DNA of 64,000 bases from Demequina lutea. GTDB lineage: Bacteria > Actinomycetota > Actinomycetes > Actinomycetales > Demequinaceae. The stretch covers positions 2,914,001-2,978,000 of the forward strand of contig NZ_JACBZO010000001.1 in NCBI RefSeq assembly GCF_013409005.1, read 5' to 3'. The position numbers were made by a program, and so were the translations under genes. Of this stretch, positions 6,902 to 40,676 are shown in pieces; position 1 is the stretch's first letter, and every line of letters starts with the position of its first letter. The notes beneath the pieces are model-generated. The model was not told the DNA's origin. It ran no database searches and saw only the letters and a list, made by a program, of their open reading frames with translations.

Positions 6902-6947
6902 CCGCGCCGCGCGCAAAACGCCCTCCCGCTCGTCGGGCGCGATCAGT

Positions 6948-21476: not shown

Positions 21477-22478
21477 TCAGCTCCCTAGCGTGGCGACGAG
21501 AACCGCCTTGATCGTGTGCATGCGGTTCTCGGCCTGAATGAAGACGGCCGACGCCGCGGATTCGAAGACCTCGTCGGTCACCTCGAGCGCGTCAACGCTG
21601 AATTTCTCATGGAGGTGCTCTCCGACGGTGGTGTCGCGGTTGTGAAACGAAGGAAGGCAGTGGAGGAACCGCGCGTGGTCGTTGCCGGTGGCCTTCATTA
21701 GTTTGGCGTTGACTTGATAGGGCTGCAGTTGCTCGATGCGCTCCTGCCATGCGGACTCCTCCTCACCCATCGACAGCCACACATCGGTGTAGACGAAGTC
21801 GGCACCCTTGACCGCGGCGGCAGGGTCCTCGGTGATGGTGACGCTGCCGCCGCTGGCCTCGGCGAGGCCGCGCGCCGTCTTGATGAGGTCATCCTCCGGC
21901 CACAGTTGGCGGGGCGCGCCAAGTCGGAGGTCGAGGCCCATCAGAGCACCCATCACCATGAGCGAGTTACCCATGTTTTGGTGGGCGTCCCCGACGTAGG
22001 CGAGCGTGATCTGTTCGGCAGGCTTGCGGCTGAGCTCCTCCATGGTGAACACGTCGCAAAGCGTTTGGGTGGGATGGAACTTGTCGGTGAGGCCGTTCCA
22101 CACCGGCACGCCCGCCTGGGCAGCGAGAGTCTCCACGGTCGACTGCGCGAACCCGCGGTACTCGATGCCATCGAAGAGCCTCCCAAGAACGCGCGCGGTG
22201 TCCTTCATCGACTCCGTCTTGCCCATGTGAGATCCCTCGGGTCCGAGATACGTGACGTGCGCTCCCTGATCATGCGCGGCAACTTCGAAGCTGGACCGTG
22301 TGCGCGTCGATGGCTTCTCGAAGATCAACGCGATGTTCTTGCCCGAAAGTCGCGGGCGTTCGGTGCCGGCATATTTCGCCCGCTTGAGGTCGTGGGAAAT
22401 GTCGAGCAGCAGGCGCATCTCATCGCGCGTGAAGTCGAGTTCCTTGACAAAGCTGCGTCCGTGCAGATTGACGGCCAT
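21477..22478 (-). CDS. arcB: Ornithine carbamoyltransferase, catabolic
   Basis: 333 residues. It phosphorolyses citrulline to ornithine and carbamoyl phosphate in this context. Motifs: [27 protein letters not shown] (carbamoyl phosphate binding STRTR), [22 protein letters not shown], and [13 protein letters not shown] (HCLP). The length, with the extra C-terminal residues, and position between arcA and arcC support a catabolic rather than biosynthetic role. It starts 22 bases after arcA. Confidence 0.95.
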
Positions 22479-22500: not shown

Positions 22501-23721
22501 TCATGCGGGATCCCTTTCGATCGGACAGGTCATGCATCGCGGGCCGCCTCGCCCACGTCCAAGTTCGCTGCCGCCGATGCCGACCACCTCGATGCCGTGC
22601 TTGCGCAGCATGGTGTTGGTCGCGACGTTTCGCTCGTAGCCCATGACCACACCGGGCGCGACCGCGAGGAAGTTGGTGCCGTCGTCCCACTGCTCGCGCT
22701 CCGCGGCCCGTTCATCCTCGTCGGTGCTGAGCACCGTGATCTCGGGCACCTCGAGGATCTCGGCGAGGGTTTCCCACAGACTCTTGTTGCGGGAGATCGC
22801 GAGCTTGCCGGGCTCCTCGCCTGCGGTGATGGTCCAGCTCCGCAGGTTGCGGTCGAAGTACGGGTAGAGAATGAACGTCGCCACGTCGACCATCGACATG
22901 ACGGTGTCGAGGTGCATGAACGCGTGGCTATGCGGCAGCTCGATGGCCACGACCGTGGTGGCCTGGCCCGCCGCGAACAGCGCGAGTGCAACGGACTCGA
23001 TGGCCATCGGCGTGGTGCGTTCACCCATCCCAATGAGCACGGCGTCGTGGCCGATGACGTGGACGTCGCCGCCCTCGATCGTCGCCGGCTGGTAGGTCTT
23101 GTCCTCGCCGCCGTAATAGGTGACAAAGTCACCGTCGGCAAACATGGGGTGGAACTGGTAGATGGCCCTGGTGTGCAGCGATTCGCGTTGCCGGGCGGGC
23201 ATGGCCATCGGGTTGATCGTGACGCCGCCGTAGATCCAACACGAGTTGTCGCGCTGGAAGAGGTGATTGGGCAGCGGCGACAGGATGAAGTCGTCGGCCT
23301 TGAGCATGTTCCACTTCAGGCTGTGGGCGTTCACGGGGTGCAGGTCGGCCTTGAGAATCCCCCCGATGAGGAGCGAGGCCAGGGAGGCGCCGTCCTTGTC
23401 GTCAAACAGTTGGCGCACGGTGCCCACGAGCGACGGACCGAGAATTTGCGGGGTGCACAACCTGTCGAGCACGAACGAGCGTCCCTCGGGGAGGTCGAGC
23501 GTTTCGGCCAGAAGTTGCTCGTAGTAGTGGACGGCCACTCCCTTGTCGCGCAGCGCCTGGGCGAAGGCGTCGTGCTCTTCCTTCGCCCTTGACGCCCACA
23601 CCACGTCGTCGAAGAGGAGCGACTCGATGTTGTCGGGGGTGAGCCGCGATAACTCCAGGCCGGGGCGGTGAATGATCGCCTGGCGAAGCTGGCCGACCTC
23701 CGATCCCACGTTGAATGTCAT
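22501..23721 (-). CDS. arcA: Arginine deiminase
   Basis: 406 residues from ATG 23721 (Shine-Dalgarno AAAGGAAC). Converts arginine to citrulline and ammonia. Seen: [90 protein letters not shown], and near the end the catalytic cysteine in [15 protein letters not shown]. Ammonia release raises pH, so the operon supports acid and energy stress survival. Confidence 0.95.
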
Positions 23722-23768
23722 GGTCGTTCCTTTCTGGGGAGTGGTGACAATGGAAGACTTGTGGCCGG

Positions 23769-25244
23769 TCATGACGCGTCGGCCCTCACGGGCACCGGCT
23801 TGTCGGCTGGCTCCGGATTGTCGACTGGCTCGGCCACTTCGCCAAGGCGCTCGCGGCGTGCCTTCAGGAAGGCGTACAAGACGAGACCTGCCAGGATCAC
23901 CACCAGTGCCTGGTAGACCACCTGATAGCCCGAGGCGAAGGTCACCCACATCGAGAACAGCACGCTCGTGCCAGCCACCGCCAGGTCCCGAGCCAGGGCC
24001 CAGCCGTTGACGCGACGGCGGCGTGAAACCAGGAATGAGAGCTGGGCGATCGCCGACATGAAGTACGGGATGGCCACCGTCACCACAGTGAGGTCGACCA
24101 GGTATGTGAAGATGGTCAGGCCCGAGCTGGACGTGTAACGCCACAGCATCAGCAGGGAAGGCAGGATCGTTCCCACCACGATGCCGAACCAGGCCGTGCC
24201 GTTGCGGTTGACCCAAGCGAAGGGTTTGGGGAAGAGGTCATCCTGGGCGATCGCGCGCGACGTCTCGGTGACTATCAGGGTCCAACCGTTGAGTGCCCCG
24301 ATGCCCGACACGACGGCAACGGCCGCGATGAACTTGGGAGCCCACGCCTGTCCGGGGAACATCGTCTGGAAGGCGTCGACGAACGGTGCGCCCGTCTTGA
24401 CCAGGGCGGGGTGGGCCACGAGGCCCATGACCGCCGCCGTCACCAGCACGTAGAGAACGGCGCTGAGCGCGGTGCCGATGAGCGAGGCGCGCCCCACGTT
24501 CTTGACGGGGTCCTCCACCCGCTTGGCGGTCATCGCGGCGGCCTCCACGCCGATGAAGGAGAATAGGGCCACTCCAGCGGCGATGCCGATGGCGGTGTGG
24601 AGGCTCCCGCCCGATGCGTTGAACGCGCCGAAGTTCGCGGCCTTCACGAAGAACCAGCCGACGACGCCAACGAAGAGCAGCGGTACGAACTTCAGGACGA
24701 CGGTGACATTCTGAAACCACGACATCTGGCGAACACCCGCGAGGTTGATCGCGGCGGGCACCCACAGGCCGACCAGCGCGATGCCCCAGTTCGTCATTCC
24801 ACTTGGGTTTTTGAGACCGAGGAGGGAGTCGACGTAAAACACCCAGGAAGCGACGATCGCGGCGTTACCCGCCCACGTCTGAATCCAGTAGCACCAGCCC
24901 ACGAGGTAGCCGGCGAAATCCCCGAACTCGTGGCGGGCGTACGCGTAGAGACCGCCGTCGCTGTTCGGGACTCGCTTGGAGAGCTGACCGAACAGCACTG
25001 CCAGAAGCAAGGCGCCGCAGGCGATGACGGCCAGGACGAGAATCGACATCGTGCCCGCTCCCGCCAGGACTGCGGGCATCGTAAACACTCCCGTGCCCAC
25101 GATGCTGCCGATGACCAGGCCCGTCGCCGAGGTCAGCCCCAGGAGGTTGGCCTTGCTGGCGTTGCGCGGAGACATCGGCTTGTCGCCCGATGTCGCGGGT
25201 TTGGCGGCGGGATTGGCGGCGGGATTGGACTCAGAGATCGCCAT
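23769..25244 (-). CDS. arcD: Arginine/ornithine antiporter (APC superfamily)
   Basis: 491 residues with about 12-13 membrane helices. [24 protein letters not shown] contains the substrate-binding GSIVGTGVF of APC transporters; [28 protein letters not shown] and [18 protein letters not shown] are typical of the basic amino acid/polyamine antiporter group. It should exchange external arginine for internal ornithine. ATG 25244 has GAAGG upstream; an earlier start at 25259 is possible. First gene of arcDABC. The charged N-terminus contains an NPAA repeat. Confidence 0.93.
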
Positions 25245-25428
25245 GAGGCGCGCCTTCACTTTCGGCTATTGCGGTGGGTAAGGGAGTGCTGGCACTCGCG
25301 CCAGTTGCCAGGAAGCGTCGATCAGGCGAGGGCTCTGCGGACAGCTTCTTGAAGACCACGAGCGCGACGCACGCGACCTTGACGACCACAAGTTCGGCGG
25401 ACATGGCGGGTCTGGTGATCGCGGTCAT
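25231..25428 (-). CDS. Possible small hydrophobic protein before arcD (doubtful)
   Basis: A 65-codon frame starts at ATG 25428, overlapping the stop of the phosphoketolase stub (ATGA), and ends inside the arcD start region. It has one hydrophobic stretch (AELVVVKVACVALVVFKKLSAEPSPDRRFLA). No family is recognised. It could be a real coupled small protein or a chance frame across a recombination junction. Confidence 0.25.
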   Translation of the reverse strand: MTAITRPAMSAELVVVKVACVALVVFKKLSAEPSPDRRFLATGASASTPLPTAIAESEGAPHGDL

Positions 25429-25517
25429 TTCGAGGCGCCCCAGGTCGGGCTATGGGCCTCGAGTGGTGCACCGGGTGCGGGGGGAGCGGTTCCGTTGGTG
25501 CTGATGGTGCCAGACAT
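25425..25517 (-). pseudogene. Phosphoketolase N-terminal stub upstream of arcD
   Basis: The 30 codons from ATG 25517 ([20 protein letters not shown]) match the start of the phosphoketolase at 38349 ([20 protein letters not shown]) and then stop. The same Shine-Dalgarno (AAGGAGCGGCACC in the intact gene) is present. It shows that sequence which once carried the start of a phosphoketolase now drives arcD. Confidence 0.8.
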
Positions 25518-26065
25518 GGTGCCGCTCCTTGCAGATGAGAAATCTCGATGGTGTTGTGGCAGTGAAAGCGCTGTGGACGCAGACGGTTAGTGCACGCCGA
25601 CGTAAACGCGTGGCTGGTGAGGCGTCGACGAGCCGACGGCGCAAGTGCGACGGGATCGGGTTCGCGAGGCTGCGGAAAACTCTGGGCGGCGAGCAGATTG
25701 CTCACGGACTCGCGGCACATTCGCGGCGAGGGCGATCCCAGACCGGCTACGGTCCTGGCAGATCTGAGTCAACGCCGCCGCGATGCGATTGTCAAACCCG
25801 CAAATCCCAAGCACGTTGTCCGCCGCCTCGGCCCATAGCGGACCGGCCACCCTAGGAATGATCACCGGTCAGTTCGGGAATTAAATCCGGGGCCACGCGG
25901 GTGTAATGTTGAAATTGCTGGGCACCTCAGCCAGTCCGGAAAGAATCGGCCGTCCGCTGCCGAATCCTCGAGCCCTTGTGGCTCCCCGCCGAACACCTCT
26001 CGTCGCCTAAAACGACACAGACGAGGCCAGCCTTGCGAACAGGTTCAATCGGTCGCCACCAAGTA
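25518..26065. repeat. Shared intergenic control block, copy A (arcD / PRC-barrel side)
   Basis: From about 25600 to 26040 this matches 38505-38935 with roughly 20 differences in about 430 bases, including an uninterrupted run of about 100. Both copies sit between divergent genes: minus-strand metabolism (arcD or phosphoketolase) and plus-strand stress protein (PRC-barrel or SPFH). It holds no convincing gene. The perfectly conserved part has small hairpins (GAGCC-CTTGT-GGCTC and GTCG-CCTAAAA-CGAC), so a structured leader or small RNA is possible. 26066-26195 shows nothing else except the Shine-Dalgarno of the next gene. Confidence 0.85.
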
Positions 26066-26195
26066 CGGCGTGCTTGAACTCCTCGCAACCTCCACGGCAG
26101 GCGACAGCCTGAGAACTCATACCGGTCGCCAATGGGCCGCGACCGACGATTCGACGAAGATGCCGGCGCCCACTACCCCAAGGAGACGATTTCCG

Positions 26196-26642
26196 ATGAC
26201 ACAGAACGATAACGCCGCTCTTTACACCCTGGGCGATCACGGTCAGACGGTCGATGGATCAGCCAACGATGTCCGTGGGCGGGAGGTCAAGGACAAGAAC
26301 GGCGACGGCATCGGTAAGGTCGCTGACCTCCTTGTCGATGACCGAGAGGAGAAGGTTCGCTTTCTGCTGGTCGAACACGGCGGATTTCTGGGCTTCGGCG
26401 AAACGAAGTCGTTGATACCTGTCGACGCCATCACCAAGATCACCGAGGACGACGTGGCCGTTGATCAGTCACGCGAGCGGGTTGCAGCGGCGCCGGGCTA
26501 CACCCCAGATCTCGTCGATGACCGGCCGCATCACACGAGCATCTACAACCATTACGGATACGCACCGTACTGGGGCGGGGGATACATGTATCCGTCCGGC
26601 CTGGCCATGCTCCCAATGGCAGGTCCGCTGAACCCGCACTGA
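26196..26642 (+). CDS. PRC-barrel domain protein
   Basis: 148 residues from ATG 26196 (AAGGAGAC upstream). Residues about 25-85 form a PRC-barrel: VRGREVKDKNGDGIGKVADLLVDDREEKVRFLLVEHGGFLGFGETKSLIPVDAI. The tail is rich in Tyr, Gly and Pro (HYGYAPYWGGGYMYP). Such proteins are common in actinobacterial stress regulons; the biochemical role is unknown. It is the plus-strand output of control block A. Confidence 0.88.
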   Translation: MTQNDNAALYTLGDHGQTVDGSANDVRGREVKDKNGDGIGKVADLLVDDREEKVRFLLVEHGGFLGFGETKSLIPVDAITKITEDDVAVDQSRERVAAAPGYTPDLVDDRPHHTSIYNHYGYAPYWGGGYMYPSGLAMLPMAGPLNPH

Positions 26643-26866
26643 CACATCATGGGGTCCCGCTACAACGCGGCCTCGCAGCGATGACGTCGGCGAGGATGAG
26701 GTCGGCGAGTTCTCCCGGGCAGGGATGGTCACCCATTGCCTTCGGGCGACGTGCGGGCGTAGCCTGCGAAGCAGGCATGATCTCGCTCTTCGGGCGCGAC
26801 CGCTCAGTGGCTACCCCAGACCCGGTACAGCACGTCGATTAACGATATGCGCGGAAGGCGGCCTCC

Positions 26867-27360
26867 ATGGCGAGCACAATCAGTCGTTTTCACCCTTCCC
26901 CACACCATTCGATCGTGCGACTCACCGGAGAGCGGGACCTCGCCACAGCCCCGCCGCCTCGGACCGCCTTGAGAAGTGCTGGCGCCGACCCCGTGCACGA
27001 GTTCGTCGTGGAGTTTACTGCGGTCACCTTCATGGACTGCTCGGGCCTGGCCCCGTCGCCAGGGGCTCACGCCAAGCTCGGAGGCTGGTTGCAGTTGTGC
27101 AACCCGGCCCCGGTGCCGCGATCGGCAACCGGATGATGATCGAGCAAGCAACGGGACTACTCATGGCCAGCCTCGGTTGCGACGCGACACAAGCCTCGCG
27201 CGCACTGCTGCAGATCTCCTGGGACCAAGACGCAACGGTCTTGGACGCCGCCCTGACCGTGGTCGCGGCCGCCCAGGACTCACGATCCCCCGACGGAAGT
27301 CACAGAATTCGCGCCGACCGCGACCGGTCGAGCCGCACAAGATGCCTCGACGGTCCGCGT
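26867..27360 (+). pseudogene. STAS-ANTAR regulator, frameshifted
   Basis: The first part encodes a STAS domain (HSIVRLTGERDLATA, VHEFVVEFTAVTFMDCSGLAP). At about 27085-27100 the frame changes, and the other frame continues with VVQPGPGAAIGNRMMIEQAT and GLLMASLGCDATQASRALLQ, an ANTAR RNA-binding domain. The STAS part also looks shortened after the conserved DCSGL. It was probably an anti-termination regulator controlled by phosphorylation or partner binding. Confidence 0.65.
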
Positions 27361-27381
27361 ACACCGCGGAACGGACAAGCT

Positions 27382-27762
27382 GTGACTACACGCGCCGCGG
27401 CCACGTCCACGCTCACACAGGCGGGGCCGATCCCGGCAACCAGCACACAGGGCCGGCCGGCACGGCCACGACGCCCGCGGCTCGACCCCTGGCCCGCGCT
27501 CGAGGACGCACCGGTCGTGCACTACAAGGCCAAAGACATCCTGCGGGCGGCGGGTCTGGCTTTGCTCCCAGCAGACGACATCCACGTCGCCAAAGACCTC
27601 GCCCAGATCCGTGCGGGCAATCCCCTCTCACCGTGCCTGATGATCCGCGGCAACGCACGCAAAGGGCGCGAAGCCCCTATCGCAGACGGCGAGCACCGTG
27701 TCTGCGCGTCCCATTACACAGATGAAAACACCGACATCCCCGTCAAGATCGTGAAGCTGTGA
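27382..27762 (+). CDS. Conserved hypothetical protein with ParB-like HRVCA motif
   Basis: About 126 residues from GTG 27382. The first 45 are Pro/Arg/Thr rich and poorly structured. The rest contains VVHYKAKDILRAAGLALLP, DDIHVAKDLAQIRAG and the motif IADGEHRVCASHYTDENTDIPVKIV, known from a family of unstudied actinobacterial proteins with a ParB/sulfiredoxin-like look. Its stop overlaps the next start (GTGA), placing it at the head of the Nramp operon. Confidence 0.55.
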   Translation: MTTRAAATSTLTQAGPIPATSTQGRPARPRRPRLDPWPALEDAPVVHYKAKDILRAAGLALLPADDIHVAKDLAQIRAGNPLSPCLMIRGNARKGREAPIADGEHRVCASHYTDENTDIPVKIVKL

Positions 27763-28349
27763 GCCCCGACTCGTGGCCCCCTGCGGCTCACCACCTGGTC
27801 CAGGGGCCCCACGCTGCGCATCAGCCGCGGTTAAGGAACACCAATGCGCGGAGAACCGCAAACCCCGGCGTCCCCGTGGGGCCGGGCTGGTGGTGGGGCC
27901 GAGCGAGGACGCGAGCGGCCGGGATCCTGGTTGCCGCAGTGCTGTGTGCACTGACGGCCGGCTGCACCGGAGCCTCCGGCTCCAGCGGCGACTACGCCTC
28001 CAAGGTCGCCAACGCTGCGCGCGCCGCCGATTCCACAGTCAACATCGCTGAGCTCGACGCCGAACTTGTCCGCGACCACAAGACACTCACCACCGACCTG
28101 CAGGTTTCACTGCAGCAGGCCTATTCCGATGCCAGCAGCACGCTGTCCGGCTTCGACGCGGTACTGCCACCCCATCGGTCCGACGTGGCCCTGCAGCAAC
28201 GCCTCGATTCGGCCCTGTCTGCGGCCGTGACGCTGCTGCTGGAGATGCGGGTCCGCGCAGGCCAGGGTCGCGAGGCCGAGTTGGTGCCGCTGATCCCGCA
28301 ACTACGCGCGATGAGCGTTCGGCTGAAACTGTTCGAGCCGCTGGCATGA
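27759..28349 (+). CDS. Lipoprotein of unknown function
   Basis: 196 codons in the longest form; a start near GTG 27876 would give a normal signal peptide. AAGILVAAVLCALTAGC is a type II signal with lipobox LTAGC, so the mature protein is anchored outside. The remaining 130 residues are helical (DHKTLTTDLQVSLQQAYSDAS ...). It overlaps the Nramp-like gene by ATGA, hinting at a partner role for that transporter. Confidence 0.65.
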   Translation: MSPDSWPPAAHHLVQGPHAAHQPRLRNTNARRTANPGVPVGPGWWWGRARTRAAGILVAAVLCALTAGCTGASGSSGDYASKVANAARAADSTVNIAELDAELVRDHKTLTTDLQVSLQQAYSDASSTLSGFDAVLPPHRSDVALQQRLDSALSAAVTLLLEMRVRAGQGREAELVPLIPQLRAMSVRLKLFEPLA

Positions 28350-29584
28350 AACGCGTCTTCGGCCTGTTCCTCGGCATCGTGACCGCCTTCGGCGGCTTCA
28401 TAGACATCGGCGATCTGGTCGCCGATGCCCAGGTCGGTGCCCGCTTCGGACTCTCGCTGGCCTTCGTGACCGTAGTGGCCGTGGTCATCATCATGTGCTT
28501 CGCGGAGATGTCGGCCCGCATCGCGATAGCCACCCGCCGCGCCGCGTTCGACGTCGTGCGCGAGCGCCTCGGCCCGAAGGCCGGGCTGGCCGGTCTGGCC
28601 GCCTCGTTCACCGTGACCGCGATGCTGGTGATGGCCGAGCTATCCGGCGTCGCGCTCGCCCTGGAACTGGCGACCAGCGTCAACCATCTGCTGTTCATCC
28701 CCGTGCTTGCAGTTGTCGCCTTCCTGATCGTCTGGAAGCTGCCGTTCGAGCCGCTCGAGATTTTGTTCGGGGTGCTGGGGCTCGCGACGCTGGTGTGGCT
28801 GGTGGCCATCACCCACCTGGCACCGGACTGGGGGTCGCTTCTGCATGGCGCCACCCATCCGTCCCTGCCGCATGGCGAAGGGCTGCCGACGATGCTGTTT
28901 TTCGCGATCAGCCTGCTCGGGGCACAGGCCACCCCGTATGAGACGTTCTTCTTCTCCTCCGGCGCCGTCGAGCAGGGCTGGACGTCGAAGAAGAGCCTGC
29001 CGGACATGCGCGCGAACGTGCTCATGGGATTCCCGCTCGGCGGCCTGCTGGCGATCGCCATCCAGACAGCATCGATGCTCGTGCTGGCCCCGCGAGGGAT
29101 CAGCGTGCAGCACCTTTCCGACTCTGTGTCACCGATCGCGTACTCCTTGGGCAAGCTCGGGCTCGCGGTCGCGATCCTTGCCGTCTTCGCCGTCACCTTC
29201 GGCGCCACCATGGAGACGCTGATGAGCACCGCCTTCATCACCGCGCACTTCTTCGGCTGGTCCTGGGGCGTCATCGGTCGCCAGTTCCGCTCGTCGCGGT
29301 TCTACGCGCTGATCATCGCCGTGCTCGTCGGCGCGGTCCTGTTCGCGCTGACCACCATCGATCCGATCAAGGTCACGATCTACGCCGTGGTGCTGTCCTC
29401 GGTCACCCTGCCCGTCACCTTCCTGCCGCTGCTCATCGTCGGCAACGACAGGCGCGTCATGGGCTCGACGCTGGTCAACGGCAAGCTCGCCAATACCGTC
29501 GGATCACTGTCGATGCTCGTCGTCATCCCGGCCGCGCTGCTCGCGTTACCCCTTCTGGTCGCAACGAAAGCAGGAATGGGATGA
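28346..29584 (+). CDS. Nramp-related divalent metal transporter, non-canonical motifs
   Basis: 412 residues, about 11 helices, in the Nramp fold. TM1 reads IVTAFGGFIDIGDLVADAQVG, where classical Nramps have DPGN. TM6 reads LGAQATPYETFFFSSGA, where classical ones have the metal-binding Met of the MPH motif. Loss of both points to the Nramp-related magnesium transporter branch or a novel specificity rather than Mn/Fe import. It overlaps the lipoprotein before it and a PRC-barrel-like gene after it. Confidence 0.75.
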   Translation: MKRVFGLFLGIVTAFGGFIDIGDLVADAQVGARFGLSLAFVTVVAVVIIMCFAEMSARIAIATRRAAFDVVRERLGPKAGLAGLAASFTVTAMLVMAELSGVALALELATSVNHLLFIPVLAVVAFLIVWKLPFEPLEILFGVLGLATLVWLVAITHLAPDWGSLLHGATHPSLPHGEGLPTMLFFAISLLGAQATPYETFFFSSGAVEQGWTSKKSLPDMRANVLMGFPLGGLLAIAIQTASMLVLAPRGISVQHLSDSVSPIAYSLGKLGLAVAILAVFAVTFGATMETLMSTAFITAHFFGWSWGVIGRQFRSSRFYALIIAVLVGAVLFALTTIDPIKVTIYAVVLSSVTLPVTFLPLLIVGNDRRVMGSTLVNGKLANTVGSLSMLVVIPAALLALPLLVATKAGMG

Positions 29585-30030
29585 GCCGATACGACAAGAC
29601 CCACGACAGGGAACACGATCGCCAGCACAAGCGCGCCGTGCAGTACGAGAGCCTGTGGGTCATGCTGGACCTGCTGGACCGTCAGATCATCGACGACGAG
29701 CTGCACCCGGTCGGCAAAGTCGACGACGTCGACTTCGTCGCCGATGGCCCCGGGGCGCCGCGACTATCGGCGTTGCTCTCCGGTGCCCAGGCGCTCGGCG
29801 AGCGCCTGGGCGGACTCCTCGGTCGGATGATGGCCGGCACCGCTCGTCGCATGCTCACCGAGCCTCGCGATGGTGCCCGCGCGGTGCCCTGGTCGGACGT
29901 CGCCGAACTCAGCTACGTGATACAACTGCGCGCTGGCATCGCCGAATTGAACCTCGAACCCGCCCTCGAAGTGTGGTTGCGCGACAACGTCATCGGCCCC
30001 CTGCCCGGCAGCGGACATGCGCGCAGCTGA
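29581..30030 (+). CDS. PRC-barrel-like protein, coupled to the Nramp gene
   Basis: 149 residues. SLWVMLDLLDRQIIDDELHPVGKVDDVDFVADG resembles a PRC-barrel start. A Gly/Leu-rich amphipathic stretch follows (SGAQALGERLGGLLGRMMAG), then VPWSDVAELSYVIQLRA. Overlaps both neighbours (ATGA at 29581; 14 bases at 30017). May act as cytoplasmic regulator of the transporter; this is inference from position. Confidence 0.55.
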   Translation: MSRYDKTHDREHDRQHKRAVQYESLWVMLDLLDRQIIDDELHPVGKVDDVDFVADGPGAPRLSALLSGAQALGERLGGLLGRMMAGTARRMLTEPRDGARAVPWSDVAELSYVIQLRAGIAELNLEPALEVWLRDNVIGPLPGSGHARS

Positions 30031-30352
30031 ACTGCTGGGCCGATCGGTCCGCGACCCCGACGGCACCTACCTCGGGCGCGTCCTCGACATCCGCATCACC
30101 CGCACCCCCGGAACCCCCCGCCCCGGCGCCTGGAACATCGACGGCATCGTCATCGGACACCGCTGGGCGCTCGCGCGGGCCGGCTACGCCTACGGCAACG
30201 TCGACGGCCCGCTGCCGCTGGCCGTCGTGATGCGCGCGCTCGGCCGCCACCTGCGCTTCGCCCGCTGGGACCAACTCGATATCCCAGCCACAACTGCAGC
30301 ACTCACTCTGCGACCAGCGCTGACCGAACTGCCCCACCCCAGAAAGGTGTGA
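30017..30352 (+). CDS. PRC-barrel domain protein (second, adjacent)
   Basis: 111 residues. AAELLGRSVRDPDGTYLGRVLDIRIT is a typical PRC-barrel opening, followed by WNIDGIVIGHRWALARAGYAYGNVDGP. It looks complementary to the preceding protein, and the two may form a pair. Part of the Nramp operon. Confidence 0.65.
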   Translation: MRAAELLGRSVRDPDGTYLGRVLDIRITRTPGTPRPGAWNIDGIVIGHRWALARAGYAYGNVDGPLPLAVVMRALGRHLRFARWDQLDIPATTAALTLRPALTELPHPRKV

Positions 30353-30355
30353 CCG

Positions 30356-30451
30356 ATGCGTCCTAACGGACTGGACGTGCTGTTCGCGCTGATCGAAACC
30401 GGCGTGATCCTCCTCCTCTTCGCCGCGATCATCCTGCGGCGCCGCGACTGA
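30356..30451 (+). CDS. Small single-helix membrane protein (31 aa)
   Basis: ATG 30356 follows AGAAAGGTG with good spacing. The peptide has one helix (LFALIETGVILLLFAAIILRRRD) and a basic end. Four bases separate it from the previous stop. The size, position and Shine-Dalgarno argue for a real last gene of the Nramp operon. Confidence 0.5.
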   Translation: MRPNGLDVLFALIETGVILLLFAAIILRRRD

Positions 30452-30886
30452 CCACCCACCGACCGTATGACCGAACAAGCGGCAGCGCCGCAGCGCGGCA
30501 GCGGAAAGCAAACTGGTGGGTGACGTCCCGCTGTGAAAGACCTGGTCAGCGAGCACCTGGACATCCCCGAACCAGCTCGGTCGCACGGCATCCTCAAGTC
30601 AGCATGATGTGGATGTTCGCCTTCGAACGCGTCGGCTCCTGACCCCCGAGGGCGATCTGCGAGAGGCGGTCAGCAAGCGGCTGTCAGACCTACCAGAGCG
30701 GGGGTCAGATGTAGCATCTGCGTTATCGCTGCTCGGGGTGAGTGAAAGCCACGTTGAAGGCGATCGCGCAGGAATATCTAGGGCGGAGAGCTGTCGCCAC
30801 TCTCGCGTTTCAGGGAAACGGGGCCATGATTTCCTGCAAGATCGCCGGACCGGATTGAGATCATCCAACTCTTACGCGAGGACATC
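30452..30886. other. Intergenic stretch without a recognisable gene
   Basis: Frames of up to 119 codons exist but have unnatural composition. A short frame at 30532 (VKDLVSEHLDIPEPARSHG) and another near 30740 (VKATLKAIAQEYLGRRAVAT) could be gene scraps; no family was recognised. The aquaporin promoter must lie in the last 100 bases. Confidence 0.4.
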
Positions 30887-31672
30887 ATGGAGTTCCCACA
30901 CGTTCAACGACCCGACCCGACAGTGCACCAACGTGTGCCGGATGGATCAGCCACTTTTGGCTTTTTGAAATCGGCTCAGGCATGGCGGCGCATGTTCGCG
31001 GAAGCCTGGGGCACGTTCCTTCTCGTCGTCGTCGCGGCCGGTGCCGATGTCGTGGGAGCCCAGAGTGGCGGAGCCATCTCTCTGGGGATGAAGGTAGTCG
31101 CGCCAGGCATGATGGTCATGGCTGTCATCTATTTCATGGGCACTGTCAGCGGCGCCCATCTGAATCCGGCGGTTACTTTGGCGTTCGCGGCGCGGCGCAA
31201 TTTTCCTTGGTCTCGGGTTCCGGGCTATCTCGTGGCGCAGACCGTCGGAGGCATAGCCGCGGCCTCCTTTCTCCGAGCGATGTTCGGAACACTGGGACTA
31301 CTCGGCGCCACGACGCCAGGCGCAGGGGTAGGCGATCTCAGGGCTCTCGTCATGGAAGTGCTATTGACCACCGGTTTGGTCAGCACGATTCTTGGCACCG
31401 CCTCGGGTGCCCGCAATATCGGCTCCAATGCTGCTCTTGCGGTTGGCGGCTATATCGCGTTGGCCGGCCTCTGGGCGGCGCCGATTAGCGGCGCATCGAT
31501 GAACCCAGTGCGTTCGTTCGCGCCCGACCTGCTTCGCGGTGACCTGACGACCACGTGGATCTATGTCGTAGGTCCTTTGCTAGGGGGCATGATCGCGGTC
31601 GGGTTCGAATGGATCCTCAAAGGCAAACCGACCGAAGCCGGCGCGTTGGCCGCGCAGGGCGAGCTGAAGTGA
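30887..31672 (+). CDS. Aquaporin / glycerol facilitator (MIP family)
   Basis: 261 residues with six helices and two half-helices. The first NPA box is intact (SGAHLNPAVTLAFAARR). The second is NPV (SGASMNPVRSFAPDLL), with the selectivity-filter arginine directly after it. Rich Gly packing and length fit a bacterial aquaporin; the altered second box may change selectivity. The N-terminal 30 residues before WRRMFAEAWGTFLLV are cytoplasmic. Standing alone, it may serve osmotic or small neutral solute flux. Confidence 0.88.
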   Translation: MEFPHVQRPDPTVHQRVPDGSATFGFLKSAQAWRRMFAEAWGTFLLVVVAAGADVVGAQSGGAISLGMKVVAPGMMVMAVIYFMGTVSGAHLNPAVTLAFAARRNFPWSRVPGYLVAQTVGGIAAASFLRAMFGTLGLLGATTPGAGVGDLRALVMEVLLTTGLVSTILGTASGARNIGSNAALAVGGYIALAGLWAAPISGASMNPVRSFAPDLLRGDLTTTWIYVVGPLLGGMIAVGFEWILKGKPTEAGALAAQGELK

Positions 31673-31832
31673 CAGCTCAACTCGGGTCGCGTGTGAGAAC
31701 TGCCCGAGTGTCGTTCGCACGTCTCGTGTGGCGAGATTAAGGATCTGCTCCCGCCACGCCTGCGACCGCTCGCTGAGCCAGACCCGAACGGCGGGACGGT
31801 CGCGGCTGTCGACGACGCCGAGGGCGTTCCGG

Positions 31833-32696
31833 CTAGAGCTGGCTGCGGAATGACTCCAGTTCCTGATGGCGTTTGTCTGTTGTCTCGGGGTAGGCCATCT
31901 TCAGGTCGGACAGCGTGTCGAGGACGATCTGGGAGATGATGAGTCGGGCGTTGTGCTTGTCGTCGGCGGGCACGACGTACCACGGGGCGTGTTCGGAGCT
32001 GGTGGCGCTCAGGCAGTCGCCGTAGACGGTCATGTAGGTGTCCCAGTAGGACCGTTCGTGGATGTCGGCGAGGCTGGACTTCCAGTTCTTGTCCGGTGCG
32101 TCGATGCGGGCCCGGAAGCGCTTGGCCTGCTCGTCCTTGGACATGTGCAGGAAGATCTTGACGATCTGGGTGCCGTTGCGGTGCAGGTGCCTCTCGAGGT
32201 CGTTGATGGAGCGGTAGCGCTGTTCCCAGATCGCCTGTTCGTCGATCAGCTCATCGGGCAGCCCATGTCCGTGCAGGATTTCAGGGTGGACGCGAGCGAT
32301 GAGCACGTCCTCGTAGTAGGAGCGGTTGAAGATGCCGATCCGGCCGCGTTCGGGTAAGCATCGGCTGGTGCGCCAGAGGAAGTCGTGCTCGAGTTCTTGG
32401 TCGGTGGGTTGTTTGAAGCTGAACACCTGGCAGCCTTGCGGGTTGACCCCAGACATCACGTGGCGGATGGCGCCGTCCTTGCCTGCGGCATCCATGCCTT
32501 GAAAGATCAAGAGCAACGACCAGTGGTCGGAGGCATAATGCAACCGTTGCAGTGAGCTCAACTTCTTGACGTGCTTCTTCAGTTGTTTCTTGTAGTTCTT
32601 GTGAGAGCTGTACAGCGGTTCCGTGGTGGTGGGTCGATCGGTCAGGTCGACGTGGCCTCCGGATTCGACCCGAAACGATGTCGATTCTGTTGCCAT
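31833..32696 (-). CDS. ppk2: Polyphosphate kinase 2 family protein
   Basis: 287 residues from ATG 32696 (AAAGGAC upstream). The P-loop-like kinase core is visible: [27 protein letters not shown] (Walker [10 protein letters not shown]), [56 protein letters not shown]2 enzymes use polyphosphate to phosphorylate AMP, ADP or GDP. It would recover nucleotide energy under stress, in keeping with the ATP-saving genes around it. A truncated phosphatase gene is read into it in the same frame. Confidence 0.92.
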
Positions 32697-32836
32697 GGGG
32701 GCTGTCCTTTCGTGATGCCGCAATGCCTTTGTCCTGTTGCACCGCGTGATGGGTGGGTCGATCAGTGCCCGGCGCCTGGCCGCGGACGGGCGGGTGGAAG
32801 TTCTGGCGTCGACCAGGGCCTGGAACGAGGTCAGCT

Positions 32837-33026
32837 CTTGGCTCGCGCGCCGGCGGGGGCTGGACACCACCACCGGGCTCTGACCGTCCAGAACATGGTC
32901 GAGCAACTGCGGCAGTGAGGTGGCTTGTCGTCGACCGTTCGCCGTCAAGGGCACGTCAGTGGCGCCGGTATAGCGCCCGACCAGGGTCCAGTCTGTTTCA
33001 CCGTGGCGGACGACGATCAGCCTCAT
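32837..33026 (-). pseudogene. Histidine phosphatase (phosphoglycerate mutase-like), N-terminal fragment
   Basis: ATG 33026 begins [21 protein letters not shown] with the RHG catalytic motif, continues to [10 protein letters not shown], and then similarity stops. The usual second half with the catalytic His and Glu is missing; unrelated sequence follows in the same frame up to the ppk2 start. Confidence 0.65.
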
Positions 33027-33135
33027 GTTTGCCTCGCGACTGTCCGCACGGCGCGCCTGCGCGGGGAGGCGTGCTGGAGCGCACGGCCCCTCGCAGGGCG
33101 CCTCTGGTCGGCACGGCACACGATGGTGGTGATCT

Positions 33136-35847
33136 TCACGAAGCGTCAGCGTTGGACCCCACCAACGGCTGATCGTGCTGAGCGCACCAGTCGCATCGGC
33201 GGCGGTGACCAGTGCCGGGGCGGTCGTTGTGGTGGTTCTTGATCTCGAGACCGTAGGGGCATTCGGTGTTGTCATGAAACACGGGGTCACGTGGATCGGT
33301 GCCGCTGTAGAAGGCGGTGGAGTCATGCGCGGTCGACTGCTTACGGCTGCGCTTGCTGGCGGGGTCGAGGATGCGGTAGGCGAGAAGTTTGATGCGGTCG
33401 CTGAGCAGCGCCCAGATGATGGCGTAGACCCACACGAATCCGGCCCAACCCCACCCGAGGGGAGTCATGAACAGGCCGTACACGGCGATGAGGGTCGCGA
33501 CCGCCTGGGTGCCCAGAACGGCCATCCACAGGATGCGCGCCGGCTTGATCGACCAGAACGGCCCGCGAGTTCGTGTCAGGAAGATCGTCAGGTGCCCGGC
33601 GACGGAAAGCATCAGATACATCAGCGTCTGCAGCTGCGGGTGGCCGAGGTTGAAGACCCTCTCGCCGAGGTAGAAAAGGCCGAAAGCGGCGATGGGCCCG
33701 ACGACACCAAGCACGGTCGCGATGCCGAGCACCAGGCGCATGTTCCAGGCCTCGGGCTCGTTCCTGTAGTGGACCTTGTCGTAGGCGATCGACAGGATCG
33801 CACCGTCATTGAGCAACGCGAGCATCACGATCATGATGGCGGTGACGGGGTAGAAGTTGAAGAGCAGGATCGCGACGGTCATGAACAGCAGAACGCGTAG
33901 CGTCTCGGCGATGCGGTACATCGCGTAGGAGTTCATCCGTTGGAAGATCCTGCGGCTCTCTTTGATCGCATCGATGATCACCGATAACCCTGGGGTGAGC
34001 AGGACGATCGCTGCCGCCGCGCGCGCGGCATCGGTGGCGCCCGAGACCGCTATGCCGCAGTCCGCCTTCTTCAGGGCCGGCGCGTCGTTGACACCGTCAC
34101 CCGTCATTCCGACGATGTGTCCGCGCTGCTGCAGCACGTCGACGATGTGGTACTTGTGCTCGGGAAAGACCTGAGCGAACCCGTCGGCTGTTTCGATGGC
34201 CTCGCCCGTCTTCGCCGTCTCCTTCTTCTTCGAGTCACCAAGGCCCGCAGCGTCGAGGATGTTCGTGCCCAACCCGACTTTGAGTGCGGTCTCCTTTGCG
34301 ATCGCGATGGCGTCGCCGGTGACCATTTTGACGGTCACGCCCATTGCTAGCGCGGTCGCGATGGTCGTCTTCGCGTCCGTGCGGGGTGGGTCGAACAGCG
34401 GCAGCACGCCCAGGAATCTCCACCCGCCGTTTTTCCCCTCGGCCCGGGCGACGCCCAGAGATCGGAAGCCGCGGGCGGCGAAGTCGTTGACCGCCTTGTC
34501 GACGGCGGTGTTCACCTTCTTCCCGTTGCTGACGAGTTCCAACATGACCTGTGGGGCGCCCTTGCTGACCTTGAATGTCGTTCCGTCCGCGTCCGTGACG
34601 GTTGCCTCGGTGCGTTTGTGCACCGGGTCGAACGGCTCGAAGTGCGTCACGGTGTAGCCCCGCAGATCCTTCGGGTCACTCAGTCCGTCCAGCACCGCGA
34701 GGTCGATCGGGTCATCGTTCTCGGCGCGCGACGCGAGCGCGCCTGCGAGGATGACGTCTTCTGCGGCGACGCCCTCAAGACTGAACACGTCGCCAAGCGT
34801 CAGGGCGTTTTGGGTCAACGTGCCCGTCTTGTCGGCGCACAACACGTCGACGCCCGCGAGCTCCTCGATCGCGACCAACTTGCTGACGATGGCCTGCTTC
34901 TTGGCGAGCAACCGCGCACCGACCGCCATCGTGACCGACAGCACCGTTGGCATCGCCACGGGAATCGCCGCGACCGTCAGCACGAGAGCGAACTGCAACG
35001 TCGTCAGGAGCGGGTCACCGCGCAGGATGGAGACGGCCACGATGACGGCGACCAATGCGACCGCGAGGATGATGAGGTAGTTGCCGATCTTCAGGACGGC
35101 CTTCTGGAAGTGGCTGACGGTATGCGCGTCCTGAACCAGCTCGGCGGTCTTGCCAAAGTACGTGTCGGTGCCCGTCGCATACACCAGGGCGCCGATCTCG
35201 CCCCGGCGGATAATCGAACCCGAGAACACCGCATCCCCCGACTGCATGGTGGCCGGAAGCGACTCCCCGGTCAGTGCGGACTGGTCGACCTCGATCTCGT
35301 CGCCGTCCAGCAGCCGGGCATCGGCCGGGACGATGTCACCCAACCGCAACCGGATCACATCCCCCGGCACCAGTTCGCGCGACGCTGGAGTGACCCATTG
35401 ACCGTCGCGCTTGACGCGGGCCTTGGTGGCGAGCTTGTCTTTCAGCGCGTCGATGGCATTACCGGCTTGGCGTTCTTCGGTGTAACCGACCACTCCGTTC
35501 GCGACCAGCAGCAGCAGGATGATGAAGAAGTCCGCCCAGTGCCCGACCGCGCCGGACAGGATGACCGCGACTTCGATCATCCACGGGATCGGACCCCAGA
35601 AATAGCTCAGGAACTTCAGCAGCGGATTGGTCTTGTGCTCGACGATCTCGTTGGGTCCGTACTGCGCCAGACGCTGGGTCGCCTCGGCCTGCGTCAGCCC
35701 CTCCGGAGAAGACTCGAGCTGCTTTTGAACCTCAGCCATCGGCAGCGACTTCAGGTCGTTCTTCGGGTCGGATGGCGACGTCTGGGAGCCGCCCGGCGTG
35801 GGCTCGGTGGGAGTGGACTTGGGCGTCTTGGTGTTGTCAGTGCTCAT
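33136..35847 (-). CDS. Proton-exporting P-type ATPase (plasma membrane H+-ATPase type, IIIA)
   Basis: 903 residues. The N-terminal cation-ATPase domain ([19 protein letters not shown]), TGES near 192, phosphorylation site DKTGTLTQ near 337, [21 protein letters not shown] near 582 and the final helices are all present. [24 protein letters not shown] and the N-terminal membrane region match fungal/archaeal-type proton pumps. It would expel protons at the expense of ATP during acid stress. A C-terminal extension of about 65 residues is rich in His and Cys ([22 protein letters not shown]). It lies 60 bases downstream of phosphoketolase. A broken paralogue is at 18161-20552. Confidence 0.92.
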
Positions 35848-35907
35848 GAAGTGGTCCGCCTACTCGAAGTTGGTGCTGGCCCGAACCGGGCCTTCCCGAC
35901 GCCGTGC

Positions 35908-38349
35908 TCATCGCGCGTCCGGTTGAGGTGCGCCCCAGGTCCAGTTGCGGATCTCGGGCAGGTCTTGGCCGTGCTTGTTGATGTAGAGGTGGTGTTGCAC
36001 GAGCTCGTCGGCCATGGACTGCCTCAAGTAGTCGGCTGTGGTGCCGAGCTGTGGGAGCCGGTCGATGACGTCCTGCACGAGGTGAAAGCGGTCCAGCCGG
36101 TTCTGAACCCGCATGTCGAAGGCCGTCGTGATGGTGCCTTCCTCGATGTAGCCGCGCACGTGAATGTTGCGGTTGGTGCGCCTGTAGGTGAGGCGGTGAA
36201 TGAGGGTCGGGTAGCCGTGGAATGCGAAGATGATGGGCTTGTCGGTGGTGAACAACGCGTCGAAGTCGCTCTCCGATAGTCCGTGCGGATGCTCGCTTGC
36301 CGATTGCAGCTTCATGAGGTCGACGACGTTGACGACACGCACTTTCACGTGCGGCAGATGCTCCCGCAGGATCGATACCGCCCCCAACACCTCGAGCGTG
36401 GGGGTATCGCCGCAACACGCCATGACGATGTCCGGCTCTTCGCCACTGTCGTTGCTCGCCCAGTCCCAGATCCCGGCGCCTTCGGTGCAGTGCACCTCCG
36501 CGTCGGCCATCGTGAGCCACTGCGGCATCGGGTGCTTGCCTGCCACGATCACGTTCACATAGTTGCGGCTGCGCAGGCAGTGATCCGTGACCGACAGCAG
36601 ACAGTTGGCGTCCGGGGGGAGGTAGACGCGAACGATGTCGGCCTTCTTGTTCACGACATGGTCAAGGAAGCCGGGGTCCTGGTGGGTGAAGCCGTTATGG
36701 TCCTGCTGCCACACGTGAGAGGCGAGGAGGTAGTTCAGTGAGGCGATGTCGCGTCGCCAAGGCAGTTCCTTGGTGACTTTCAGCCATTTGGCGTGCTGGT
36801 TAAACATTGAGTCGACGATGTGCACGAACGCCTCGTAGCAGTTGAATAGCCCGTGGCGCCCGGTGAGTAGGTAGCCCTCGAGCCAGCCTTCGCACTGGTG
36901 CTCGCTGAGCATCGAGTCGAGCACCCTGCCCCGTGGAGCGAGGAACTCGTCGCCTGGGACGGTGGCGACGTCCCATTGCCTGTCTGTGACCTCAAAGACC
37001 GCGCCGAGAAGGTTGGAAAGCGTCTCGTCGGGCCCGAAGAGGCGGAAGTTGTGTTGGTCATCGTTAAGCGTGACCACGTCGCGCAGGAACTCGCCAAGCA
37101 CGCGCGTGTCTTGGGCGTTCACCGAGCCCGGTGAGGGCACGGCGACCGCGTGGTCCCGGAAGTCGGGCATGCGCAGGTCACGTAGGAGCAGCCCCCCGTT
37201 GGTGTGCGGATTGGCTCCCATGCGCCGCTGTCCTCGCGGTGCGAGAGCTGCCAACTCGGGCAGCAGACGACCGGTCTCGTCGAAGAGTTCTTCGGGTCGG
37301 TAGGAACGCATCCAACTGTCGAGTTGTTCGACGTGACCGGGGTGCTGTTCGTCCACGAGCAGGGGAACCTGGTGGGCGCGGAATGTGCCCTCAATTTGCA
37401 GGCCGTCGACGACCTTGGGACCGGTCCATCCCTTGGGTGAGCGCAACACGATCATGGGCCACTTTGGTCTGGTCTCATTGCCAGTGCCACGGGCCATCGC
37501 CTGGATGGCCTGAATGGCCTCGACCGCCTCGTCGACGACGGTGGCCATGAGTTCGTGCATCGTGTCGGGGTCGTCGCCCTGAACGTAGTGGGGGTCCCAC
37601 CCGCATCCACGCAGGAACTGGTCAAGCTCCTCCGGCTCGATCCGGGCCAGGACGGTGGGATTGCTGATCTTGTAGCCGTTGAGGTGCAATATCGGCAGCA
37701 CCGCACCGTCGGAGATGGGGCTCAGGAACTTCGTGGAGTGCCACGCGGTGGCCAATGGGCCCGTCTCTGCCTCGCCGTCGCCGATGACACAAGCGACGAT
37801 GAGGTTGGGGTTGTTGAACGCGGCGCCGAAGGCGTGGCTGAGCGAATAGCCGAGCTCGCCGCCCTCGTGAATCGAGCCGGGCGTCGTGGGCGCGACGTGA
37901 CTGGAGATCCCGCCGGGGAACGAGAACTGGGTGAAGAGTTTCTTGAGGCCCACCTCATCCTGGCTCACGGCCGCGTAGATCTCGGAGTACGTGCCCTCGA
38001 GGTAGGTGTTGGCGACCAAGGCGGGCCCGCCGTGTCCCGGCCCTGCGATGTAGAACATGTCGAGGTTGTACTTGACGATCGCGCGGTTGAGGTGGACGTA
38101 GATGAAGTTCTGGCCAGGGGTCGTTCCCCAGTGCCCGACTACGAGCGGCTTCACGTCGGTCAGCGCCAACGGTCGCTTGAGCAGCGGGTTGTCATAGAGA
38201 TAGATCTGCCCGACAGACAGGTAGTTCGCTGCCCGCCAGTACGCATCGATTGAGCGCAGCAGCTCGGGAGTGAGGGTCGAGCGATGAGCCTCGAGTTGCG
38301 CGCCGGGTGCGGGGGGAGCGGTCCCTGTGGTGCTGATGGTGTCGGACAT
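35908..38349 (-). CDS. xfp: Phosphoketolase (xylulose-5-P / fructose-6-P)
   Basis: 813 residues, full length. It splits xylulose 5-phosphate or fructose 6-phosphate with phosphate into acetyl phosphate and an aldose phosphate, using thiamine diphosphate. Motifs: [76 protein letters not shown] (ThDP binding) and [30 protein letters not shown] 38349 follows AAGGAG. It gives ATP through acetate kinase without respiration. The 5' end and the upstream region are duplicated upstream of arcD. Confidence 0.95.
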
Positions 38350-38940
38350 GGTGCCGCTCCTTACCGAAGGGGAATCGCGATGATGTTGTGGCGGTGAAAT
38401 CGCTGTAGAAGTAGACAGCCAGCGCACACCGACGTGAACGAGTGGCTCGCCTCCCATGCGGAGTGAGCAGGAGTCAACGTGTCACTGGTGAGGGGTTGAA
38501 GAGCCGACGGCGCAAGTGCGACGGGGTCGGGTTCGCGAGGCTGCGGAAAACTCTGGGCGGCGAGCAGATTGCTCACGGACTCGCGGCATGTTCGCGGCGA
38601 GGGCGGTCCCAGACCGGCTAGGGTCCTGGCACATCCGAGTCAACGCCGCCGCGATGCGATTGTCAAACCCGCAAATCCCAAACACGTTGTCCGCCGCCTC
38701 GGCCCATAGCGGACCGGCCAGCCTAGGAATGATCACCGGTCAGTTCGGGAAATAAATCCGGGACCACACGGGTGTAATGTCGAAATGGCTGGGCACCTCA
38801 GCCAGTCCGGAAAGAATCGGCCGTCCGCTGCCGAATCCTCGAGCCCTTGTGGCTCCCCGCCGAACACCTCTCGTCGCCTAAAACGACACAGACGAAGCCA
38901 GCCCCGCGAACAGGTTCAGTCCGTCGCCACCAACGAATGT
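38350..38940. repeat. Shared intergenic control block, copy B (xfp / SPFH side)
   Basis: The partner of 25518-26065. The similar part runs from the xfp start to about 38935. About 60 extra bases near 38440-38495 are absent or different in copy A. No gene is convincing: the 84-codon minus-strand frame found in both copies carries mostly amino-acid-changing differences, unlike a conserved protein. Confidence 0.85.
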
Positions 38941-38976: not shown

Positions 38977-39810
38977 ATGCTCGTGTACGCCGTCATCATT
39001 GTTATCGCCTTGCTGCTCTTTTTTGCATCGGCTCGAATCGTCCTGCAGTACGAGGACGGCGTGGTGTTCCGTCTGGGGCGGGTCATCGGCGAACGCGAGC
39101 CGGGATTCCACATGATCATCCCCTTCATTGACATCATGCGAAAGGTGTCTCTGCGGATTGTCACGATGCCGATCCAATCGCAGGGGATTATCACCCGCGA
39201 CAACGTGAGCGTCGATGTCTCTGCCGTGGCCTACTTCAAGGTGGTCGACGCGGTCAAGTCGGTGGTCGCTATCGAGAACGTAGCCGCCGCCATCAACCAA
39301 ATCGCGCAGACCACGCTGCGTAAGGTCGTCGGACAGCACAGCCTGGACGACACGTTGTCGGAGACGGACAAGATCAACCTCGACATCCGCGCGATCCTCG
39401 ATGTCACGACGGTCGATTGGGGGGTCGAGGTGACCCTCGTCGAGCTCAAGGACATTCAGCTACCCGACAGCATGAAGCGTGCGATGGCCCGCCAGGCGGA
39501 GGCCGAGCGCGAGAAGCGCGCCAAGATCATCAACGCCGAGGGGGAAGCCCTCGCGGCGGCCGCCCTGGGCGAGGCATCAGACACCATGATGGCCCACCCG
39601 CTCGCGCTGCAGTTGAGGAATCTTCAGAGCCTCGTCGAGATTGGCGTGGACAAGAATACGACCGTCGTCTTCCCCGCACCGCTCATGAGCACCATCGCCG
39701 AACTGGGTGCATTCCTCGCACGCGAGACCGCCGCTTCGCAGCGAATCGCCGAGACCAAACCGGCCTCCAGTTCTGCAAACAAGCCCACGACAACCGGGCC
39801 TTCCACATGA
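38977..39810 (+). CDS. SPFH/Band 7 (stomatin-like) membrane protein
   Basis: 277 residues. One N-terminal membrane helix ([23 protein letters not shown]) precedes a full SPFH domain ([27 protein letters not shown], then [30 protein letters not shown]). The coiled region [22 protein letters not shown] and the C-terminal helix are typical of slipins. It scaffolds membrane microdomains. Its stop overlaps the start of the GAF-ANTAR gene (ATGA). Confidence 0.9.
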
Positions 39811-40676
39811 CCGAGACCAGACCCGTCGTGCCCGGCGATGCCCCTGGTGAGCGGGACCGTGCAGACACCGAGTTGACGGGCGGGTCGGCTGGCCGCGACG
39901 GCAGCCTGTTAGTGCGCCAGAGTGTAGACGTGGCCGAAATTGAAGCGCACGACCTGAGCGCGAGCCTCGCGGACTTGGCGGGACTCGTCACAGGAACCAT
40001 GGGACTTGGCGAGTTGCTGTCGCGAGTGGCGACCTATGCCAGCCACGCGATCCCTGGCGCGGACGGCGCGGGGGTCACCCTCCTGCGGGCGCACGGTGAT
40101 GGTCACGACGTCGAAGCCCTCGCCTCATCGGCGCCCTTCGTGGCGGAGATCGACGAGCTCCAGTACCGGGTCGTGAACGAAGGTCCGTGCATCAGTGCCG
40201 CGCTCGAAGGACAGACCGTCCGTTCAGGGTCGCTGGGCGGTGAAAAGCGGTGGCCGCACTTCGGACCCCGGGTCGGTCGGCTGGGTGTGCACAGCGTCTT
40301 GTCCCTCCCGTTGCTGCTTCCCGATCGCGTGGTCGGGGCGATCAACGTTTATGGCCACGCCAAGGACGCGTTCGACGACCATGCCGCGCACGTGGGTGAA
40401 CTCTTTGCCGCGCCCGCCGCGGTCGCGGTGCACAATGCACAGGTCCTCGCGCAGGCAATGGCACTGACGACTCAGTTGCAGGCAGCATTGTCGAGTCGAC
40501 CCGTTATCGACCAGGCCATTGGGATTCTCCGCAGCCGGTCGGGGTGTAGCGCCGACGAGGCATTCGCCAAACTGCGCATATTGAGTCAACACGAGAACAC
40601 CCGGCTCACCACCGTCGCTCAGCGGATGGTCGACGAAGCGGTCCGTCGCGCACGGGCCCATGCGACCAAACTCTGA
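39807..40676 (+). CDS. GAF-ANTAR transcription antitermination regulator
   Basis: 289 residues. GAF domain at about 60-215 ([26 protein letters not shown] ... [33 protein letters not shown]); the [11 protein letters not shown] segment is standard for this actinobacterial family. ANTAR at about 225-280 ([44 protein letters not shown]). ANTAR domains bind two-hairpin RNA and prevent termination. Coupled to the SPFH gene, so the signal may come from the membrane scaffold. Confidence 0.9.

Follow-up and report, generated by a model that had tools for sequence, protein, structure and literature searches.

Putative structured leader RNAs in two near-identical divergent control blocks of Demequina lutea and in related actinomycete gene islands

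The 64,000-nucleotide (nt) stretch of the Demequina lutea genome analyzed here (contig NZ_JACBZO010000001.1, positions 2,914,001 to 2,978,000; hereafter the window, numbered from its first letter) contains two near-identical control blocks, one facing the arginine fermentation operon arcDABC and genes for PRC-barrel and ANTAR proteins, the other facing a phosphoketolase (xfp) operon and genes for SPFH (slipin) and GAF-ANTAR proteins. In our assessment, the two blocks probably act as two-way control modules composed of structured 5' leader RNAs of a single family, with four transcripts answering one signal, and the arginine and phosphoketolase operons would then probably share an RNA-based switch. 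With somewhat less confidence, but still on balance, we favor the broader proposal that an undescribed class of regulatory RNA, consisting of a three-way-junction leader and a start-site hairpin, runs a multi-operon regulon of the stress or dormancy type in mycobacteria-like actinomycetes and moves with that regulon between orders, either as a new riboswitch class or as an RNA that GAF-ANTAR proteins read and that is unlike the known hexaloop pair. If true, Rfam lacks a wide post-transcriptional switch of which a genome in one large actinomycete genus can hold as many as 11 copies, and its targets would include genes for a proton pump, phosphoketolase, slipin, STAS proteins, a sensor kinase and glycosyltransferases. 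A previous reading of the window made from its sequence (the original prediction) had proposed the shared control block; the RNA leader, its horizontal spread as part of the island, and the pseudogene status of one ATPase copy go beyond it.

Block A (25616..26062) and block B (38487..38933), to neither of which a strand is assigned, form a gap-free alignment of 447 nt with 22 mismatches (95.1% identity over 449 nt), far above chance (BLAST E 0.0), and share an identical run of 108 nt (25917-26024 = 38788-38895); the predicted figure of about 20 differences is thus accurate. The claim that the blocks diverge far less than the adjoining genes also holds, given a Jukes-Cantor distance of 0.051 versus a synonymous distance of 0.54 between the ATPase copies (0.16-1.64 in patches). 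Leftward of the blocks, homology persists at about 83% across the leader region and start of xfp (25443-25615 in A, 38275-38447 in B), where B has 39 extra bases. The whole-genome search (3.1 Mb) found the block at two places only, unlike a mobile repeat scattered over many unrelated places. The proposed search in relatives had a divided outcome, with no match in 58 other relatives and, upon wider sampling, the RNA half of the block in other actinomycetes. Among the 396 genomes sampled from the order, six other than D. lutea itself yielded scraps of 25-38 nt, one of which (G124) by eye resembled protein-coding sequence. The minus-strand open reading frames (ORFs) inside the blocks (25587-25865 and 38482-38736) were rejected as a gene: both are open, but by eye most differences between them change the amino acid. 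Matches to CAGCCAGTCCGGA were not informative in the window with two mismatches allowed, and with one mismatch the motif was no commoner in the genome than its reversed control (4 vs 12).

On the plus strand, the blocks contain leader A(+) (25897..26004), upstream of the PRC-barrel and ANTAR genes, and leader B(+) (38768..38875), upstream of the SPFH and GAF-ANTAR genes. Under R2, a covariance model refined to 37 members from a first model of six sequences (R1), they score 78.4 bits (E 1.5e-19) and 77.6 bits (E 2.5e-19), respectively, both being members of the training set. The leader consists of a 5' hairpin followed by a compact three-way junction, in which the stem GUCCGG/CCGGAC encloses two elements, a long stem capped by a YGUCCGCY loop and a short hairpin (GAGC-ANNC-GCUC), and in which the linker bases are near-invariant in the alignment. 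A stretch GGGTGTARCGT is conserved just upstream of the RNA across members, and the first 20 or so nucleotides of leader A(+), GGGTGTAATGT, appear promoter-like.

The fold is supported by covariation. Among the 37 sequences, 14 of the 25 pairs show two-sided changes (shuffle mean 7.1, 0 of 500 shuffles as high), pair-keeping two-sided changes occur in all four helices, and 92.0% of the cells are paired, compared with 29-41% when the partners are slid. In a second set of 27 rows, aligned by MAFFT without structure, two-sided changes appear in 16 of the 25 pairs (shuffle mean 7.3, 0 of 500) and 83.9% of the cells are paired (27-40% slid); 26 of its rows lie outside the R2 training set but were retrieved with R1 or R2 and so lean toward the fold, which makes this check not wholly blind. 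The three-way junction and the 5' hairpin, with compensatory changes, are found in both sets. Many relatives have one more hairpin, the last, in which the GGGAUCACC stretch immediately ahead of the start codon is paired. This was assessed in 53 leaders, taken from 63 relative rows after removal of 4 duplicates and of 6 that lacked a usable start, with the two window rows left out: a helix of at least 5 base pairs is present in 32 (shuffle mean 9.4, largest 17), and the arms' own pairing was matched by 1 of 500 permutations. No Rfam 15 covariance model reached its gathering score or rose above chance; the best hit touching a leader was SPRY4-IT1_1 on the Rhodococcus leader described below (19.9 bits, gathering 50, E 0.75), and mir-583 matched the minus strand of block A at chance level (17 bits, gathering 80, E 2.9).

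The family extends well beyond the window. A class-wide search with the block returned seven genomes at E<=0.001, D. lutea included, two of which belong to the genus labeled g111 (family f22; L- and G-numbers below likewise label loci and genomes), which appears to be a mycobacteria-like actinomycete genus; these two share the same 60-odd block bases, located just ahead of a gene in both. A search with the P-type ATPase led to a plasmid of Rhodococcus sp. AQ5-07 that carries two further copies of the leader stretch and encodes a slipin, phosphoketolase, aldolase, proton ATPase, two ANTAR proteins and carbamate kinase. R1 matched 91 of the 198 g111 genomes at E<=0.1 and 75 at E<=1e-3, with up to 11 copies per genome, and its only matches in the D. 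lutea genome were the two blocks and one at chance level (E 6.2). R2 matched 27 of 394 class genomes in 10 of 138 genera, D. lutea included; among 264 phylum genomes, a sample that contained some g111 genomes without a match, it retrieved only D. lutea, so false matches are rare. Xfp has at least 590 relatives, of which the best 80 are spread over many phyla; R2 detected no strong leader at those 80 loci (L042 24.8 bits, L053 16.7, L048 16.4); when three plasmids are added to them, the only strong copies are those of the Rhodococcus plasmid. Remoter members occur in other actinomycete families (L184-L187, L189-L195, L197 (family f36), L196 (f31)), mostly one per genome and before other genes. 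Literature searches covering titles and the beginnings of abstracts returned no recognized description of the leader, an earlier mycobacterial ANTAR RNA study cited by PMC8164766 lying outside this scope; the main text of PMC11109978 and PMC8632094 contains none of five actinomycete terms.

The original prediction that the block faces both ways is supported, with a structured leader RNA on the plus strand and a weak one on the minus strand. Islands of g111 have the same divergent layout for slipin-xfp and H+-ATPase genes: in L208 the proton ATPase lies one way and slipin-xfp the other, and L205 has the same pair reversed. The weak minus-strand leaders, both absent from the training set and both probably degenerate, are B(-) (38541..38650), which faces xfp-ATPase-PPK2 (20.8 bits under R2, E 7.4e-4), and A(-) (25670..25779), which faces arcDABC and is the weakest of the four (13.5 bits, E 0.069). 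The best unrelated match in the window scores 11.9 bits under R2, and unfiltered scans of the minus-strand leader parts of the blocks gave nothing else above 3.3 bits. A(-) and B(-) are near copies of each other rather than independent, so they count once. The minus-strand leaders look decayed, and those of the plus strand well kept.

In g111 genomes the genes headed by the leader belong to an island of stress and fermentation functions, with slipin-xfp, H+-ATPase, STAS, GAF-kinase, desaturase and glycosyltransferase genes. In the eight multi-copy g111 stretches, which hold 28 leader copies, at least one neighboring pair is divergent in each stretch, several with genes between; in L209, for instance, slipin and ATPase leaders flank a GAF-ANTAR gene, and on the Rhodococcus plasmid a leader heads slipin-xfp-ATPase. 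When a script took the longest downstream ORF within 650 nt (66 picked, 5 left out), the resulting 61 encoded 24 GT4 glycosyltransferases, 3 Band_7 proteins, 3 desaturases, 3 SpoIIE, 3 GAF and 2 STAS proteins and 2 H+-ATPases, the rest belonging to single families or none; most loci are the best match of their own genome, so the glycosyltransferases may be over-represented. GAF-ANTAR proteins are encoded upstream in 12 of 53 cases (66 picked). A short ORF directly follows most of the 18 leaders examined, and a KPAPAQ.FP peptide is common to those after L205 11340 (plus strand, as KPARAQ), L208 5058 (minus), L155 1501 (plus) and L206 5509 (minus). These short ORFs possibly encode a leader peptide; no KPAPAQ.FP follows the ATPase-type leader of L209.

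In the mechanism that we propose, transcription would start at the 5' hairpin, just downstream of the conserved GGGTGTARCGT, and the junction would serve as a sensor or landing site at which refolding or binding sets whether the downstream site is read, by control of either translation or early transcription. All four transcripts would answer one signal, for which gene content suggests, as a guess, low oxygen or acid. The leading candidate for the reader is the GAF-ANTAR proteins encoded beside the leaders, to which we give not quite even chances; they lead because of their adjacency to leaders and their co-occurrence with the RNA. In counts uncorrected for relatedness, 64 of the 198 g111 genomes have both the RNA and a close GAF-ANTAR protein, 11 have the RNA alone, 7 the protein alone (two of these with weak RNA matches) and 116 neither. 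The family thus poses a concrete question, GAF-ANTAR or ligand, and supplies a covariance model for finding targets.

Several observations weigh against a shared leader family read by these proteins. Any gene of the island would co-occur with the RNA, the counts given above ignore kinship, and the 11 RNA-positive genomes lack a GAF-ANTAR match at E<=1e-60. The E-values of R1 and R2 are rough, the calibration having been short. Free folding of four 141-nt pieces of the blocks gave structures no stabler than shuffles (z -0.24 to 0.56); only comparison brought out the fold. The outer stem has six pairs, two of which fail in 8 and 11 of the 37 rows, by eye mainly slipin-type members, and in the second set pairing is poor in part of the long stem, where two pairs fail in 14 and 15 of the 27 rows, perhaps through alignment. 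The minus-strand copies are weak under both models; under R1 they score 13.1 and 16.4 bits, and their 5' ends are shifted by 32 nt relative to the R2 placement, a difference in register that makes their exact fold uncertain. The start-site hairpin was not seen in the window copies, and the predicted gene starts lie 102 and 192 nt downstream of the plus-strand leaders. Finally, PMC8164766 defines an ANTAR-target RNA by two hairpins, each with a hexanucleotide loop that has A at position 1 and G at position 4. Like those RNAs, as described there, the window family is an actinobacterial cis leader with hairpins located beside ANTAR genes, but a closed three-way junction, whose loops are 8 and 4 nt long, takes the place of tandem A1/G4 hexaloop hairpins. 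Because the loops (3-4, 8 and 4 nt in the alignment, by eye) do not fit that hexaloop definition, the leader is not classed as an ANTAR-target RNA.

Among other explanations, the strongest is a ligand-sensing riboswitch that works without a protein reader, its junction binding a small molecule and its last hairpin opening or closing the start site. A folded domain followed by a start-site hairpin, the arrangement in many relatives, is a usual plan of translational riboswitches, the compact junction and near-invariant linker bases fit it, and the 11 of 75 RNA-positive genomes without a close GAF-ANTAR protein would be accounted for; against this, the targets share no obvious metabolite, Rfam offers no match above chance, the association with GAF-ANTAR genes is strong, and the window copies have no start-site hairpin, which leaves the riboswitch possible but doubtful. 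The block could also be a duplicated promoter of the ordinary kind, with DNA sites for binding proteins, its sequence preserved by gene conversion and the RNA fold playing no role; we consider this unlikely. The window does resemble gene-converted divergent promoters in having a near-identical block twice and mosaic ATPase paralogs; moreover, the 95% identity spans the whole block, beyond the RNA, the ATPase copies contain conversion-like patches, and GGGTGTARCGT is conserved ahead of the RNA. Such promoters, however, would not lead one to expect a leader fold that is conserved with compensatory changes across genera and many genomes, and the 70 nt upstream of GGGTGTARCGT show nothing clearly conserved among the 37 members.

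The hairpins and the promoter-like stretch would also suit a gene for a trans-acting small RNA rather than a leader, yet the copies are many, each adjoins a gene, and in the glycosyltransferase operons the start codon lies 20-24 nt past the end of the model, so we regard this as very unlikely. Harder still to credit is a mobile or repeat element inserted next to genes with which it has no connection, as the copy numbers in g111 could suggest. D. lutea has two copies only instead of many scattered ones, and by eye a co-oriented ORF adjoins 27 of the 28 copies in the eight multi-copy stretches, the exception being L206:5509 (a 118-amino-acid ORF); in addition, blastn against plasmids matched one Rhodococcus record or none, and a search with one exact pattern matched no viral contig, both searches being insensitive.

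Window Xfp is 83.9% identical to that of the Rhodococcus plasmid and 84.7% to that of L205; the ATPase shares 81.2-84.5% and the SPFH protein 81.6-86.5% identity with Rhodococcus and g111 proteins (86.5% with the L208 slipin), and GAF-ANTAR 71.6% with its Rhodococcus plasmid counterpart, and the PRC protein has 45% identity with the one encoded on a Frondihabitans plasmid. Among other genomes of the same genus, the best ATPase match reaches 34%. Given these identities of 72-86% versus 34% for the best same-genus ATPase and 62% for the genome's own second phosphoketolase, and the absence of the block from 58 relatives, the D. lutea genome probably received the stress/fermentation island horizontally, together with its leaders.

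The genes around the blocks bear on how the two copies arose. In copy A, the xfp start site and 25 codons (25443..25517, minus strand, start codon at 25517) are followed by a spacer and then arcD; the predicted xfp remnant is therefore real, with homology to the intact gene ending at 25443 and the frame stopping after 30 codons, and its start site, AAGGAGCGGCACC-ATG, is identical to that of intact xfp. Downstream on the same strand lie an arcD-like amino acid permease (23769..25259, Pfam AA_permease_2), an ORF holding arginine deiminase arcA (22501..24216, ADI domain at residues 199-568), ornithine carbamoyltransferase arcB (21477..22478, OTCace) and carbamate kinase arcC (20542..21471, AA_kinase; 57% identical to the Rhodococcus plasmid gene). 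Copy B comprises, again on the minus strand, xfp (35908..38349, XFP), the H+ P-type ATPase (33136..35847, P-type ATPase) and an ORF with histidine phosphatase and PPK2 domains (31833..33326, Pfam). ATPase copies do follow both operons, as had been claimed, but copy A (18161..20402, minus strand, aligned against copy B) is a pseudogene because a 22-base insertion shifts its frame and 144 bases are missing. Its identity to copy B is patchy, 0.67 to 1.0 per 100 nt in the alignable body, as gene conversion would leave it, and this mosaic makes conversion likely at least in the ATPase copies. Duplication of a block-xfp-ATPase unit, with arcDABC replacing xfp in copy A, is consistent with the stub and the ATPase remnant and may explain the two copies, whose likeness may be due to selection or to gene conversion; that arginine fermentation came under the phosphoketolase switch is plausible.

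On the plus strand, the blocks face the PRC-barrel gene (26196..26642, PRC; start codon predicted from AAGGAGACG upstream), an ORF with an ANTAR domain (26725..27762, Pfam), the SPFH/slipin gene (38977..39810, Band_7; predicted start) and the ORF holding the GAF-ANTAR protein (39417..40676, GAF and ANTAR), whose true start lies inside the ORF. An xfp match is present in 43 of 44 same-genus genomes, D. lutea included, which has its second phosphoketolase at G000:C1:797206-799593, 62% identical to window Xfp. Outside the window, the minus strand of L130 (2693-3061) has a match (E 1.4e-7) to the cspA thermoregulator family that does not reach the gathering score. Within the window, three stretches (42515-42685, 53375-53899 and 55161-55665) are 80-97% identical to each other, and short direct repeats at 90-92% identity occur at 4182-4348 / 6736-6903 and 12636-12741 / 16042-16147.

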